Assembly: GCA_016764355.1 (NCBI GenBank)
Contig: JAESSA010000001.1
Location: 1-38,832, forward strand
DNA: 38,832 nt
Source of the DNA: Sneathiella sp.
GTDB lineage: Bacteria; Pseudomonadota; Alphaproteobacteria; Sneathiellales; Sneathiellaceae
Direction of reading: 5' to 3'
The notes below the pieces were generated by a model. That model saw only the letters and a program-made list of their open reading frames with translations. It ran no database searches and had not been told where the DNA came from. This document shows, in pieces, positions 3,338 through 15,715 of the stretch; position 1 is the first letter of the stretch; each line of letters begins with the position of its first letter. Both the position numbers and the translations under genes were made by a program.

Positions 3338-3979
3338 CTACGAGGGTTTCGCTGGATGGTGAAACCTGCTCAGTTGAGCCGGGTCTAGAGAATGCTTTTG
3401 GTCTTCTGCTCTCAGTTTTTTGATCCTGCGATAAAAACTGGACCGCGAAAGGCCAATTGATTTGGCAACCGCCGCCCCTGTTCGCGGGTTGCCGTTCTGA
3501 TCTGGTGTTGCCAGTAAATCTATGCCTTTTTGGATGGTGTCATCAGACACTTTTTCCTTCGGTCCAGAGCGTTTACCAGAAGCCCATGTCGCAATAAGGC
3601 TGCGTATGGTCCTCTCCTGAAGGAGATCTTTCTCAAGTTCAGTAAAGGCAGAGATGATAAGTCGGTAGGCGTCCCCTTTTGTCCCATCCGTGTCCCCGAT
3701 GCTGTCGGTAAGGGATTGAAAACCAATATTTCGACTATTCAGGCCTTCAAGAAAACTTACAAGTTCAATGGTTCGTAACCCTAAGCGGTCGAGTTTTAAC
3801 ACCACAAAGACATCACCGGCACTCATATGGCGAAGGGCCTTTTCCAACTCCGGTTTTATAGTGGTTACGCTTAAAACTTTCTCATAGAAAACTTTGCAAC
3901 ACCCGGCTGCTTTCAGGTCTCTGGTTTGATCATCAAGATGCTCAATTTCAGTGGAGACTCTGGCGTAACCAATTTTCAT
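3338..3979 (-). CDS. serine resolvase/invertase family recombinase, divergent
   Basis: About 213 aa from the chosen ATG at 3979 (MKIGYARVST). An upstream in-frame ATG at 4027 would add 16 hydrophobic residues not seen in the family. The N-terminal catalytic domain has the nucleophile S9 in YARVS, R7, the LDRLG segment with R65, and an E-helix ending in 'LLQERT'. A helix-turn-helix follows (GAAVAKSIGLSRSSFYRRI). Unusual: the second conserved Arg of LDRLGR is Leu (LDRLGLR), the EKxSG segment reads EKVLSV, and the basic linker before the HTH is altered. It may be a degenerate transposon remnant or a divergent active enzyme. No transposase gene or clear res site was found nearby. Confidence 0.8.
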   Translation of the reverse strand: MKIGYARVSTEIEHLDDQTRDLKAAGCCKVFYEKVLSVTTIKPELEKALRHMSAGDVFVVLKLDRLGLRTIELVSFLEGLNSRNIGFQSLTDSIGDTDGTKGDAYRLIISAFTELEKDLLQERTIRSLIATWASGKRSGPKEKVSDDTIQKGIDLLATPDQNGNPRTGAAVAKSIGLSRSSFYRRIKKLRAEDQKHSLDPAQLSRFHHPAKPS

Positions 3980-4604
3980 AAGGGGGTGTCCTGTATTGCA
4001 TGCACTAAAAATAATTATAATACACAATTATAGGAGGCTGGATCGAAAGACACAAAGTGCAAAATGAAAATCAGCATTCATAATTTCAACACGGTTACTT
4101 CTGAATGCCAGGCAAAAACCTAAAAAGCGCATTAAAATATTTGATTGTAAATAAGCAAGGTACAGTGTGCCATGCCAATTTATGCTAAACAACCAATAGT
4201 GTTTTCTGTTGTGTCTATGAACACAATGGGATCTTGTGAATTTGTTAATGTTTTTAGCTGTATTTTATGATCTGTTTTGAAATATAATGACTGGGAACTA
4301 CTTGCGAATGAACTAATATTTAATATAAAATTCAATGGTTTGTTCTTCCCATATCAATTTATAAGAAATTACTCTTGCTCTGTAAGAATGACACTGTATA
4401 AACAAATTTGTTGGCTGTAAGACAGTGTTGGTTGGGTTGATAATAGTAAAGTGTGGGTATTGTTCTAATAAATAAAAACAAGATATTCAACGATAGCGCG
4501 ATATTTTTGTCCGAAAATCTTTGGCTTTAAATAAAAAAAAGATGTCGCCCCTAAATATGCCGCCCTTTTCCTAACCTAAACCTTCATTAAGTGGTGATCG
4601 AAAT
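3980..4604. other. AT-rich intergenic region without a credible gene
   Basis: About 620 bases separate the resolvase start from the large secreted-protein gene. The stretch is clearly more AT-rich than its flanks and I find no ORF with coding character. It holds a TATAAT at 4283-4288 without a good -35, a 6-bp inverted repeat TTGTGT-N6-ACACAA (4209-4226) and a near-palindromic AT tract around 4011-4032 just upstream of the resolvase gene. The promoter of the secretion operon must lie here, but I cannot place it with confidence. Confidence 0.6.
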
Positions 4605-11446: not shown

Positions 11447-12775
11447 ATGAAAATGCATTTTAAGAAGCTTATTCTCCTGTCTGTTTGTTCTCTTGTCGCG
11501 ATATCCGCTCCGCACTCTTCAAGAGCTGTATCCCTGCAAGAACTGTTGCCAGAGATATTGGAAAATCACGAACGCATCCAAAGTAAAAAATATGCATTGG
11601 AGGCCGCACGGGAAGATATTGAGGTTAGACTCGGTGACTGGTATCCAACCGTCGACCTTTCCAGTGATTTTGGTCGTGAAATGCAAAATAAGCCCTCTGG
11701 CTCCGATGACACCTATTTAAACTATAAGCAAGCAAGCCTGGAAATCACCCAACTCATCACTGATTTTGGTGTGACAAGCGCGGCAGTTGATACTGCGAAA
11801 TTGAAATTTGATCGCGCAAAGCTTTCCTATTTTTCGGAAAGACAGGATCTTCTCTCTGATGCTGTTACAGCATATGTGGATGTTATCGGCGCGTGGAAAG
11901 TTTCAAAATTTGCGCAGCAATCGGAAGAAAACATCCGCAACCAGACTGGCCTTGAAGAAGTGCGGGTTTCCGTTGGTGGTGGCCTAACCACTGACGTGTT
12001 ACAAAGTAAATCTCAGTTGGCAGGGGCACAAACCAGACGAATTCGCGCTGATGGCAAATTGAATAAGGCGATCAATCATTTCGAGACAATTTTTGATTTC
12101 TCTCCCGATGATGTTCAGTCTTTTGAAGAATTTTCTCTTCCCTTTGATGTGAAATATGAAGAACAGAGTGACTTTGAAACTGTTCGAAACGGGAATTTCA
12201 AAATTCAAATTTCTGAAAATAAAGTGGAGGCGGCAAAAGCAAAAGTCAGAAGCCGTAAAGCCGGCTCATTTCGGCCTAGACTCGAGCTAAGCGCTAGCAT
12301 GAATGCCAAAGATAATGTCTCTGGTACTGCGGGGGTTCAAACCGAAGCTCTTTGGGGTGTTAAGGCCACTATGCCGTTGAATTTAGGGTTTACAGAATTA
12401 AATTCGATCAAATCGTCAAGGCATAAACTCAATTCCGAAAAAATGAAGCTTTCGACAACATATCGCTCTGTTCGAAAGAGTTATTTAAATGCATTGCAAG
12501 AAGTCAGAACATCGCGCCAGACTTTGGAATCCTTGGAGTTTCAAGTTGGAATTGCTGAGAATTTTTTAAAACTGTCCCGACAAGAACGGGAGCTTGGCCA
12601 GCGATCCTTGATCGATGTTTTATCTGGGGAAACGACGCTTATTAATGCACAAAGTGATGCGGAGGCCGCCAAAACAGATCTTTTGAAGGCCATTATCTCA
12701 CTCCAAGAAATTATGGGGAAACTAGATGTCACGCTCCTGTCTTCCGCTGTAATATCTTCCGAGAAAGTGCAATAA
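11447..12775 (+). CDS. TolC-family outer-membrane channel of type I secretion
   Basis: A 442-aa outer-membrane efflux protein. It begins with a Sec signal peptide (basic KMHFKK, hydrophobic core, likely cleavage after SRA near residue 27). Two repeats of long alpha-helices with TolC-type segments follow: 'ITDFGVTSAAVDTAKLKFD', 'AYVDVIGAWK', 'VSVGGGLTTDVLQSKSQLAGA' in the first half and 'QERELGQRSLIDVLSGETTL', 'EAAKTDLLKAIISLQEIMG' in the second. This is the usual pattern of the trimeric TolC/LapE exit duct spanning the outer membrane and periplasm. It starts 17 bp after the channel fusion gene and ends 10 bp before the ABC gene, so it is part of one transcription unit. It should dock with the HlyD-like adaptor encoded at the operon's end. 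Confidence 0.92.
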   Translation: MKMHFKKLILLSVCSLVAISAPHSSRAVSLQELLPEILENHERIQSKKYALEAAREDIEVRLGDWYPTVDLSSDFGREMQNKPSGSDDTYLNYKQASLEITQLITDFGVTSAAVDTAKLKFDRAKLSYFSERQDLLSDAVTAYVDVIGAWKVSKFAQQSEENIRNQTGLEEVRVSVGGGLTTDVLQSKSQLAGAQTRRIRADGKLNKAINHFETIFDFSPDDVQSFEEFSLPFDVKYEEQSDFETVRNGNFKIQISENKVEAAKAKVRSRKAGSFRPRLELSASMNAKDNVSGTAGVQTEALWGVKATMPLNLGFTELNSIKSSRHKLNSEKMKLSTTYRSVRKSYLNALQEVRTSRQTLESLEFQVGIAENFLKLSRQERELGQRSLIDVLSGETTLINAQSDAEAAKTDLLKAIISLQEIMGKLDVTLLSSAVISSEKVQ

Positions 12776-12785
12776 AGGCAGTAAA

Positions 12786-14429
12786 ATGAGGGAGTTATGG
12801 TTACGCCTACAGTCATATCCGTTTGTTTCTACGCAACTGATTGTGGCGTCTCTTTTTGCTAATCTTTTGGCGCTGGCAACCCCTGTCTTTGTGATCATGG
12901 TGCTTAATCGCTATATCGGGTCTGGCATTGATGCAACGTTAATCACTTTAACAAGTGGTGTTGTGCTTGCCATCCTTTTGGAATTTTGTTTCCGCTTTAT
13001 GCGTTTGAAACTAACGGAAAAAATAAACACCAAACGCAATCATGATTTGATGATTGGGGCGTTTGGGATGGTTTTGAGCGCGAAAATGAGGGCCCTTGCC
13101 GAACAAAGTGCAGGGGAGAAACGTGAGACCTTACAAGGGTTACAGATCATTGAAGCGGCTTATGCACCTTCAAATTTGACAACGCTTTTTGATTTTCCGT
13201 TTGCGCTAGTCTTTGTCTCTGTCCTTTTTCTTCTTGCCCCGGTTTTGGGTATCGTGGTGCTTTGTTTTCTTTGTGCCTCCTTGGGCATCAGCTACGTCGA
13301 TCGCCACCTGTCGCAGGAGAATATTAAAACATTAAGCAAGACGAATGCGTCGGGAAATTCCCTTATCAGTACGGCGGATTTAGCCAGTAAAACAGTTCGT
13401 GCCTTCAATCTTCAGAATGTGGTGATGAAAAAGTGGGGCCAGTATGTGTCTTCTTTCCTGTCCCAAAGAAGAAGATCTGGGCATCAACAAGGCACCGTTC
13501 AGGCTCTGATGGGTATGGTGCAGGCTTTGATGAGTGTCAGTATATATGCCATTGGCGCCTTGCTTGTTGTAAAGGGGGAGCTTGATATCGGCTCCCTTAT
13601 TGGAGCGAATATTCTGGCCTCACGTGCATTTGGTCCCATTACCCAACTTTCCCGCCTGCAGTCCTTGTTCAGCAAAGCCAAAATTGCCTTGGCTCGTATT
13701 CATGTGCTGGCTCAGATTGAGACAGAAAAAGATAAGGGGACAAGTCCGAAAGTGTATAAGGGCGGCCTTAAATTCAAGGATGTCTCGTTTTCTTATCCGG
13801 GCTCTACGATCCCTCTGTTTGAATCCCTTGATCTTACTATTACGCCCGGATCAATTTTAATTCTGGTGGGGGAAAGCGGAACCGGTAAAAGTACGTTTTT
13901 CCATATGGTCACGGGCCTGTTAGAGCCCGACCGAGGGCAGGTTTTGACCGATGGAATTGAAATGCAGCAGCTCTCCTTGCCGTGGTGGCGCCAGCAACTC
14001 ATATATCTCCCGCAGGAGCCCCTTTTCCTCTCTGCGTCCATCTTGGAAAATATGGATAACAGGTCTCCCCTTTTAGTAGAAAATGCCTTACGCCAAGCGG
14101 GTCTTGAAGAGTTTATTGATAATAGTGCGAAGGGGCTGGAGACGGTCTTGCATAATAACGGATTAAATTTACCCGTGGGTATTCGCCGCCGCCTAGCCCT
14201 TGCCCGTGCTTTTTTGAATGATGGGGCGCTTGTATTATGTGATGATCCCACAGAAGGCTTAGATATTGAGGGTCGGAAGATTGTTCTACAATGTCTGAAA
14301 AACCTGTCGGAGCAAGGTAAAACACTGATCATTGCGACAAATGATCCGGCAATCTTACGAGGCGCAAGTGTGGTTCTGGACTTAAATCAGAAACCAGCCC
14401 CGCAGATTCGAAAGATGGTTTCCCAGTGA
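12786..14429 (+). CDS. type I secretion ABC exporter with degenerate ATPase motifs
   Basis: 547 aa: a membrane domain (about 1-310, with NLLALATPVFVIMVLNRYI typical of type I exporters) and a nucleotide-binding domain (about 325-547). No N-terminal C39 peptidase-like domain is present. Walker A is intact (GESGTGKST, 362-370) and the Q-loop has Q410. The signature LSGGQ is replaced by LPVGI (462-466), the Walker B reads LVLCDDP with D487 where the catalytic Glu belongs, the D-loop region is EGLD, and the H-loop His is N519 (IIATND). ATP hydrolysis may therefore be slow, or need another subunit. It overlaps the adaptor gene by 4 bp (GTGA), so translation is probably coupled. Confidence 0.9.
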   Translation: MRELWLRLQSYPFVSTQLIVASLFANLLALATPVFVIMVLNRYIGSGIDATLITLTSGVVLAILLEFCFRFMRLKLTEKINTKRNHDLMIGAFGMVLSAKMRALAEQSAGEKRETLQGLQIIEAAYAPSNLTTLFDFPFALVFVSVLFLLAPVLGIVVLCFLCASLGISYVDRHLSQENIKTLSKTNASGNSLISTADLASKTVRAFNLQNVVMKKWGQYVSSFLSQRRRSGHQQGTVQALMGMVQALMSVSIYAIGALLVVKGELDIGSLIGANILASRAFGPITQLSRLQSLFSKAKIALARIHVLAQIETEKDKGTSPKVYKGGLKFKDVSFSYPGSTIPLFESLDLTITPGSILILVGESGTGKSTFFHMVTGLLEPDRGQVLTDGIEMQQLSLPWWRQQLIYLPQEPLFLSASILENMDNRSPLLVENALRQAGLEEFIDNSAKGLETVLHNNGLNLPVGIRRRLALARAFLNDGALVLCDDPTEGLDIEGRKIVLQCLKNLSEQGKTLIIATNDPAILRGASVVLDLNQKPAPQIRKMVSQ

Positions 14430-15715
14430 AATTATTTTTAAAAGTAAACCTATCTTCGTTCAGCTTGATCAACAATGTTTTCTTTTTGATGACCTTTGGT
14501 CTTGTGGCCATTTTCTGGTGGATGTCACTGGGGACCTTGGATGTTGTCAGTCTCGCCAATGGTGAAGTTATTCCCGTAGGGCAGGTTAAAAAAGTACAGC
14601 ATCTGGAAGGGGGAATCGTCCAGGAAATATTGGTTCGAGAAGGGGAAACTGTCACGAAAGGTCAGGCTGTATTTGTTTTGGATAGCACACAATTAGAAGC
14701 CGACAAAATTGAACTGGAGAGCAGGTTAACGGTCGTATCCGTCAAGATACTACGTTTGAAGGCGGAAATTTCGCAAGATCGGTTATTAAAGATACCATCT
14801 GAATTGATTAGAAAATCCCCTGAAATAGCGGCTCAAGAAACTGACTTGTTCAACACTAGAGGGCAGCGCTTAACCGAACAGTTGGACGTTCAAAAGGAAC
14901 TTATCGCTCAAAAAGAATTGCAAGTAGGCGAGATCGAGACCCAAATTGAACGGGGACTGGACGTAAAAAGACTGTCTGATGAGCAAATCGATATTAGTGA
15001 AAAAATGCTGAAAAACGCACTGGGTAGTCGTTTGGCGCATATATCTTTGTTGAAAGAAGGCACGAACCTAACGGCTAAGATTGAGCAGAATATGGCTCTG
15101 TTGCTTCAAACCCGCGCAGCTCTGAGAGAAGCGAATACGCGCATAAGCATGATCAAAACTATATTTGATGAAGATGTCAAAACCCAATTGAGTGAGGCAG
15201 AGCAGAAAAGGCGCGAACTGTCCCAAGTTGTCATCAAAATCAAAGCACAATTGGATCGTATGACCTTGCGGGCTCCTGTCGATGGTATTGTAAAGGCGCT
15301 TTTTGTCCATTCAGAGGGCGAGGTCATTACGCGCGGTGGTACGGTTCTTGAGATTGTTCCTGCGGGGGATCAATTGGTTATTGAGGCCTTATTGCCAGCA
15401 GTCGAGATTGGTTTTGTGAGCCTTGATCAAGCCGTGCAAATTCGCTTGGCATCCGTAGACGCAGGCCGTTTTGGTAAAATGGACGGTCAAATACACACCA
15501 TCAGTCCGGATTCTTTTGTCGATGAAAAAGGGGTAAGTTTTTACAAAATCTACGTCACCCCAAAGGACGCTGCCTTTAGCCACGGGAAAACAACGTATAA
15601 ACTCTCCCCCGGTGTGCAAGTGATCTGCAGCATTATTACGGATCAGCGGACAATCCTAAGCTACTTGTTTGACCCCTTTTTCCGCCAGTTTGGATCAGCT
15701 CTGACCGAACGATAA
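14426..15715 (+). CDS. HlyD-family membrane-fusion adaptor of type I secretion
   Basis: A 429-aa periplasmic adaptor linking the inner-membrane exporter to the TolC-like duct. A single N-terminal membrane helix lies at about residues 19-37 (FFLMTFGLVAIFWW). The first lipoyl half follows (GEVIPVGQVKKVQHLEGGIV, REGETVTKGQAVFVLD). A long coiled-coil hairpin covers roughly 90-270, and the second lipoyl half and beta-barrel follow (DRMTLRAPVDGIVKAL, HSEGEVITRGGTVLEIVP). This is the standard HlyD/LapC layout. The GTG start overlaps the ABC stop codon. It is the last gene of the operon; no clear intrinsic terminator follows before the convergent folC end 51 bp away. Confidence 0.93.
   Translation: MKLFLKVNLSSFSLINNVFFLMTFGLVAIFWWMSLGTLDVVSLANGEVIPVGQVKKVQHLEGGIVQEILVREGETVTKGQAVFVLDSTQLEADKIELESRLTVVSVKILRLKAEISQDRLLKIPSELIRKSPEIAAQETDLFNTRGQRLTEQLDVQKELIAQKELQVGEIETQIERGLDVKRLSDEQIDISEKMLKNALGSRLAHISLLKEGTNLTAKIEQNMALLLQTRAALREANTRISMIKTIFDEDVKTQLSEAEQKRRELSQVVIKIKAQLDRMTLRAPVDGIVKALFVHSEGEVITRGGTVLEIVPAGDQLVIEALLPAVEIGFVSLDQAVQIRLASVDAGRFGKMDGQIHTISPDSFVDEKGVSFYKIYVTPKDAAFSHGKTTYKLSPGVQVICSIITDQRTILSYLFDPFFRQFGSALTER

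Follow-up and report, generated by a model that had tools for sequence, protein, structure and literature searches.

The window, by which we mean the whole 38,832-nucleotide stretch of DNA analyzed here, contains an operon whose genes are ordered on one strand as putative substrate, PBP-MscS channel, TolC, ABC, and HlyD (Table 1). The GTG start of the HlyD gene overlaps the stop codon of the ABC gene by 4 nt, and the latter is the single ABC gene of the operon, with no second half-transporter encoded alongside. The C-terminal region of the putative substrate (residues 988-1240) recurs beside four related operons. The PBP-MscS protein combines a Leu/Ile/Val-type periplasmic binding domain, a beta-rich domain, and an MscS channel; PF00924, a profile that matches MscS and YnaI, scored above its cut-off in this protein. 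The beta-rich domain in the middle of the fusion (residues about 400-625), which separates the binding domain from the channel, is strongly conserved and had no Pfam match. When the AF2 model of the fusion (pLDDT 75.2) was used with Foldseek, only binding-protein matches were found among the best 50. Overall, the fusion protein resembles a ligand-gated channel of the MscS type. A serine-recombinase-like gene, judged by eye from its translation, is located just upstream of the operon (window positions 3338-4027). The genome is an alphaproteobacterial draft that is 66% complete, and no second ABC of the clade described below was found in that 66%. No close homologue of the window ABC was found in 23 congeners, in which the best matches had about 30% identity or less and were of the canonical kind (according to the motifs of those sampled); recent gain of the gene is therefore possible.

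Table 1. Genes of the window operon and motif positions within its ABC gene.
Feature	Position	Strand	Details
Putative secreted substrate, 1296 aa	4605..8495	+	Calx-beta
PBP-MscS fusion, 967 aa	8526..11429	+	PF13458, residues 38-344; PF00924, residues 791-857
TolC-family outer-membrane channel	11447..12775	+	PF02321, 161.1 bits (above cut-off); TIGR01844, 186.3 bits (below cut-off 225.15)
T1SS-type ABC half-transporter (TMD + NBD), 547 aa	12786..14429	+	ATG start, single open frame
Walker A, GESGTGKST, residues 362-370	13869..13895	+	Intact
Signature, LPVGI, residues 462-466	14169..14183	+	Placed by alignment
D487 at the catalytic Glu position	14244..14246	+	Codon GAT; placed by alignment
N519 at the switch-His position	14340..14342	+	Codon AAT; placed by alignment
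HlyD-family periplasmic adaptor	14426..15715	+	TIGR01843, 329.6 bits (cut-off 208.65)

Sequence and fold of the window ABC

The window ABC scored above the cut-offs of both PF00664 (75.3 bits; cut-off 28) and PF00005 (88.8 bits; cut-off 25), and a peptidase-like N-terminal domain was absent. The top PDB match of its AF2 model (pLDDT 91.8) was ATP-bound HlyB (8dck_A, TM 0.93). Motif columns were placed by aligning the protein with canonical T1SS transporters, which have LSGGQ, DE, and H at the corresponding sites. A preliminary description had assigned an intact Walker A, LPVGI, D487, and N519 to this protein; the alignment confirmed all four, and none of the canonical LSGGQ, catalytic Glu, and switch His is present. 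The Walker B motif reads VLCDD with D486 unchanged, the D-loop reads EGLD with D493 unchanged, and both Q410 of the Q-loop and the second signature Gly (G465) are also unchanged; the P463 codon is CCC. Judged from the alignment, residues that serve ATP binding and closure of the NBDs are retained, those for hydrolysis are altered, and the E-to-D substitution is a conservative one that preserves the carboxylate.

The description had further stated that the gene shows no other decay, and this was borne out: the window ABC keeps 57 of the 59 columns in which 90% or more of 98 relatives agree, the departures being N364S and E487D. General decay of the gene was rejected on this basis. Early decay in this strain, or assembly errors accounting for D487 and N519, appears very improbable to us. 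The assembly is a metagenome-type draft, the two codons are a single base from GAA/GAG and CAT, and the congeners yielded no close homologue, as such an explanation would allow; however, the frame is full length with nearly all conserved columns kept, L056 and L278, both close relatives, likewise have Asn at position 519, and constraint is evident in relatives that share the losses (see below).

The LSxGIRRR clade and the lineage of the window ABC

The window ABC falls in a clade that we name LSxGIRRR, characterized by a non-Gly residue at signature position 3 and by a hydrophobic residue and a basic run after the second Gly (pattern L[SAP]xG[IVL]RRR); it displays these features and its own branch on the tree. 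The alignment kept 153 of 182 matches after 29 near-duplicates at 95% identity were dropped, and 106 clade rows entered the tree and census once matches of 202 bits or less or of 480 aa or less, as well as L006, L104, L109, and L189, had been removed. In a tree calculated without the motif columns, the 106 relatives split from 8 canonical T1SS rows with a support of 100. Of 385 alphaproteobacterial genomes, 14 contain a homologue at E 1e-70 or better, and many contigs recorded as Rhodospirillales, Azospirillum, Magnetococcales, Desulfobacterota, SAR11, or gammaproteobacterial also carry one. A gene for an RTX-type protein lies directly upstream of the clade ABC at many loci, with a FecR domain in two of three sampled. 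Two clade ABCs stand in tandem at L086 (6328-9644), the sole such pair in the 67 loci L043-L109, and in a subgroup comprising L314, L328, and L338 the Pro after the catalytic Glu is replaced by Met (DEM), with SHK or SHR at the switch.

Gly was found at signature position 3 in none of the 106 rows, most of which retain Glu and His. Position 2 is Ser in 42, Ala in 33, Pro in 30, and Thr in 1; position 4 is Gly in 102 and Asp in 4; and Gln occupies position 5 in 4. All rows have K368 and D486 (106/106), the catalytic acid is Glu in 97 rows and Asp in 9 (a carboxylate thus being present throughout), and the switch residue is His in 74 and another residue in 32. The minimum numbers of changes on the tree were one for signature position 3, five for Glu/Asp, and eleven for His/other, and we conclude that the odd signature is ancestral to the clade, with Asp and the loss of His having arisen repeatedly. 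Because the whole clade shares the signature change, the window gene has not lost the canonical signature on its own, and the candidate explanation of three independent losses in that gene was rejected. The three motif changes described earlier stand as residues but are of different kinds: the signature marks the clade, E487D is rare as well as conservative, and the switch His is missing from about a third of the rows. Among the 106 rows, neither Glu nor His is present in the window ABC (P0001), L074, L078, and L187, and further sampling added L276, L277, and L343.

The closest kin of the window ABC come from Magnetococcia and a Rhodospirillales-type order. L167, L168, L171, L172, L173, L187, and L056 cluster with it in an 8-row group, with a support of 93/88 for the full protein without motif columns and 98/96 for the TMDs alone. 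Since the group was recovered both without the motif columns and from the TMDs, decay of the NBD does not account for it; a long-branch artefact of the NBD was likewise rejected because the TMD-only tree recovers the group. In that TMD-only tree, the intact PBP-MscS rows do not form the nearest sister of the window group. The most altered members (L167, L168, L171, L172, and L173) are found in five Magnetococcia operons that share the window order PBP-MscS, TolC, ABC, HlyD, and a substrate-like C-terminal region is nearby in four of the five. Scored over 7 catalytic features, the losses amount to 1 in L056, 2 in the window ABC, 3 in L171 and L172, 4 in L167, and 5 in L168, L173, and L187. The mean is 3.50 for this group, compared to 0.05 for 20 intact PBP-MscS-linked rows (the link was checked where neighbourhoods or genome matches existed and was otherwise taken from the tree) and 0.44 for 78 others. 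In the Magnetococcia members the losses extend to residues of Walker A, the Q-loop, or the D-loop, or to the signature Gly; L172 retains His despite its membership of the group. The E-to-D change of the window ABC is seen among the Magnetococcia kin only in L187, and close kin have N, S, A, D, or R at position 519, the Asn being common to the window ABC, L056, and L278. A larger tree yielded a 14-row group that includes the window ABC (SH-aLRT 90), in which all 14 rows come from genomes with a window-type PBP-MscS, 13 are without the switch His, and some carry the E-to-D change.

These data bear on the possibility that the window ABC is an ordinary ATP-driven exporter, in which the rewired LSxGIRRR signature and D487 would be adequate, the switch His would be dispensable, and export would be ATP-powered though slower. 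A carboxylate at the catalytic position in every row (97 E, 9 D), the absence of His from 32 of 106 through at least 11 state changes in otherwise well-conserved exporters, the 57 of 59 conserved columns kept, and the hydrolysis still reported for E-to-D sites (PMC7756269) are all consistent with such an exporter; the additional losses of Walker-A, Q-loop, signature-Gly, and D-loop Asp residues in members of the group go beyond a His-free cycle, and the slow rate of E-to-D sites is reported to be unable to sustain transport directly (PMC7756269). We regard this explanation as a real possibility, without considering it probable.

Association with PBP-MscS and evidence of selection

PBP-MscS proteins with at least 38% identity over most of their length are here labelled window-type, the match in G906 being partial. 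The ABC and PBP-MscS genes share an operon in the window and in five Magnetococcia, in G813, G827, G794, and G792 some 3 to 8 kb separate them, and in the remaining genomes the PBP-MscS gene is on another contig or 30 kb from the ABC. In the genomes containing L056 and L187, a window-type PBP-MscS is encoded away from the ABC; that of the former genome adjoins a protein with 2485 residues or more. The PBP-MscS tree mirrors the main split of the ABC tree. Window-type PBP-MscS is also held by G497 and G507; the neighbouring ABC in G497 (L140), however, is placed elsewhere and has both Glu and His. Nine PBP-MscS matches were observed in the one Magnetococcia genome G507, and in one operon (L236, 3115-5418) the TolC frame is extended to 768 aa and the ABC is absent between TolC and HlyD.

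For Magnetococcia, PBP-MscS was found in 20 of 48 genomes (the inclusion of all 48 in the ABC search was judged from their numbering), and a clade ABC was present in 20/20 of these versus 11/28 of the others (Fisher 6.5e-6, kinship ignored). Five of the 385 alphaproteobacterial genomes have PBP-MscS, 4 of them among the 14 with a clade ABC. The order of G764 contains a clade ABC in 75 of 199 genomes, PBP-MscS in 16 of 199, and both in 13. Among the first 19 new ABCs from this order, seven were His-less, and PBP-MscS is carried by exactly those seven genomes. A His-less ABC was present in 11/12 genomes with window-type PBP-MscS and a clade ABC, versus 3/55 without it (Fisher 3.2e-9, kinship ignored); the PBP-MscS-free set covered 55 of 62 clade-positive genomes with one ABC each, all copies being counted for PBP-MscS genomes, and the contrast was still 11/12 versus 3/55 when only the best match per genome was used. 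The exception is G906, and G957, which carries the other PBP-MscS type, keeps His. As within-genome controls, the other clade ABCs of G894 and G914 keep His, as does one other copy each in G892 and G813. After correction for kinship, about 3 informative independent pairs were obtained, 3 in the same direction and 0 in the opposite one (p 0.25), a result that is not significant because most of the signal is one lineage.

Glu and His are kept by 20 more distant PBP-MscS-linked tree rows. No full PBP-MscS was found in the genomes of L074 and L078 (Desulfobacterota-type), one giving a weak 28% match to the binding domain only and the other no match. As L074 and L078 show the triple state in such genomes, the changes do not require the channel, and these two cases together with the 20 intact rows led us to reject the idea that the channel causes the loss. 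The adjacent PBP-MscS is nevertheless a conserved companion in this operon type. The unusual or gated export with the adjacent channel that had been suggested for this locus is partly supported, in that the ABC motifs are repeatedly eroded in this operon type and the channel accompanies them. Canonical motifs in homologues of the operon type would speak against that suggestion, and they are seen in part: the 20 distant PBP-MscS-linked rows keep Glu and His, whereas 13/14 rows of the window's own group are His-less.

An altered half-transporter could also act with an intact ABC from elsewhere, in mixed dimers or trimers of dimers whose intact partner hydrolyzes ATP. We find this heteromer unlikely: the window operon has one ABC and the 66%-complete genome yielded no second one of the clade; G792, G794, G812, and G838 each have a single clade ABC match, which is His-less; the L074 and L078 genomes have one clade ABC each; and the altered signature would damage the partner's site too. 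In its favor are the degenerate sites known in the heterodimers TAP and TmrAB (PMC7756269, PMC8277102), the presence of at least one other clade ABC in 6/6 Magnetococcia genomes with an altered member, the 6 HlyB chains listed in solved HlyB entries, and tandem T1SS ABC pairs in two genomes of the window's genus. Those pairs (L271 and L273; 598 + 710/720 aa, with LPGGI and LPAGF) are possibly heterodimers.

The altered ABC of the Magnetococcia pair G439/G465 gave a dN/dS of 0.187 (NBD 0.157, TMD 0.217), and two intact paralogues from the same genomes gave 0.125 and 0.081. The values were 0.067, 0.239, 0.039, and 0.036 for four other His-less pairs and 0.058, 0.059, and 0.199 for intact pairs; several pairs approach saturation of dS (pS 0.63 or more), and their dN/dS is rough. 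As gauged by these ratios, the comparison shows purifying selection acting on relatives with the same losses, and the low values imply that the NBD is kept functional. Constraint at residue 519 itself looks relaxed, rather than selection favoring Asn, because the residue varies among N, S, A, D, and R. For the earlier view that the changes were selected, the purifying selection on these relatives speaks in favor and the variable residue 519 speaks against.

Proposed mechanism and comparison with known systems

On the basis of these results we favor, with a probability of roughly 45%, the reading that the window ABC is an ATP-binding, slow- or non-hydrolyzing gate in a PBP-MscS-linked T1SS. For this pump ATP may be a switch and not a fuel, as the loss of the same parts in many PBP-MscS-associated relatives suggests. 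ATP binding would close the NBD dimer so that the conduit opens or stays open, hydrolysis would be slow or absent with ATP serving as a gate or reset signal, and the long Ca-binding-type substrate would be driven largely by folding outside the cell and by membrane energy. PBP-MscS would sense a periplasmic ligand and regulate the same system or its substrate, as is thought for SiiAB; we infer this regulatory role from linkage only, SiiAB being the nearest analogue. According to published work, a TAP D-loop mutant is a nucleotide-gated facilitator and Glu-to-Asp sites in heterodimers hydrolyze ATP slowly and cannot directly sustain transport (PMC7756269), the RTX domain has been given a Brownian-ratchet role in secretion (PMC8486122), and the HlyB variant H662A binds ATP and dimerizes with no hydrolysis and no surface HlyA (PMC5018854). 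From these reports together we infer an ATP-gated, slowly or non-hydrolyzing conduit; the lack of surface HlyA with H662A also indicates that hydrolysis is needed in the HlyB system, which counts against the gate reading, and D487 could still act as a base. Also counting against it are the non-significant association after correction for kinship, the His of L172, the nearest TMD-only sister of the group, and the near-absence of the E-to-D change from the Magnetococcia kin. Rather doubtful is the broader proposal of a T1SS class in Alphaproteobacteria and Magnetococcia in which the ABC would be an ATP-gated, essentially non-hydrolyzing valve, its partner a dedicated ligand-sensing MscS-type channel, and export achieved via outside folding and membrane energy.

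The share of ATP hydrolysis, as opposed to ATP binding, membrane energy, and outside folding, in type I secretion is an open question, and natural exporters that keep their binding residues while their hydrolysis residues drift, beside paralogues of the same genome in which they do not, make it directly testable. After SiiAB, the conserved pairing of a T1SS with a binding-protein/MscS fusion supplies a second case of an ion channel that is accessory to adhesin secretion; in the portions of the literature retrieved by our search, we recognized no description of a PBP-MscS fusion with a T1SS.

The window ABC resembles the HlyB-, LapB-, and PrtD-type transporters in its TMD + NBD fold and in its operon with HlyD and TolC, and PrtD is likewise without the peptidase-like domain. 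In contrast to these types, it has a non-canonical signature, D for E, and N for H, and it scored under all three of their cut-offs (TIGR01846, 240 bits versus 725.55; TIGR03375, 331.2 versus 693.1; TIGR01842, 267.5 versus 510.15). A 733-aa T1SS ABC outside the clade (L272, 6659-8857), with TolC and HlyD in its operon, provides a separate instance of the triple change: its signature is LATGL, Glu is replaced by Asp, and His is replaced by Asn. The E-to-D change and an altered signature are shared with TAP, TM287/288, TmrAB, and BmrCD, and degenerate sites of heterodimeric exporters are described as binding ATP and hydrolyzing it slowly (PMC7756269, PMC8277102). These four pair a degenerate site with a consensus site, whereas the window ABC has all of its changes in one polypeptide and no adjacent partner gene. 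PBP-MscS has the PF00924 domain in common with MscS/YnaI-family channels and differs from them in carrying, fused to the channel, a conserved beta-rich domain and a binding domain of the Leu/Ile/Val type. The Salmonella SPI-4 T1SS, which secretes a giant adhesin, has a dedicated inner-membrane channel, SiiAB, in the same locus, as PBP-MscS is here, and its ABC, SiiF, is reported to supply energy by ATP hydrolysis (PMC12607715); SiiAB is a proton channel of the Mot/Exb/Tol family, whereas the channel of the window operon is PBP-MscS.
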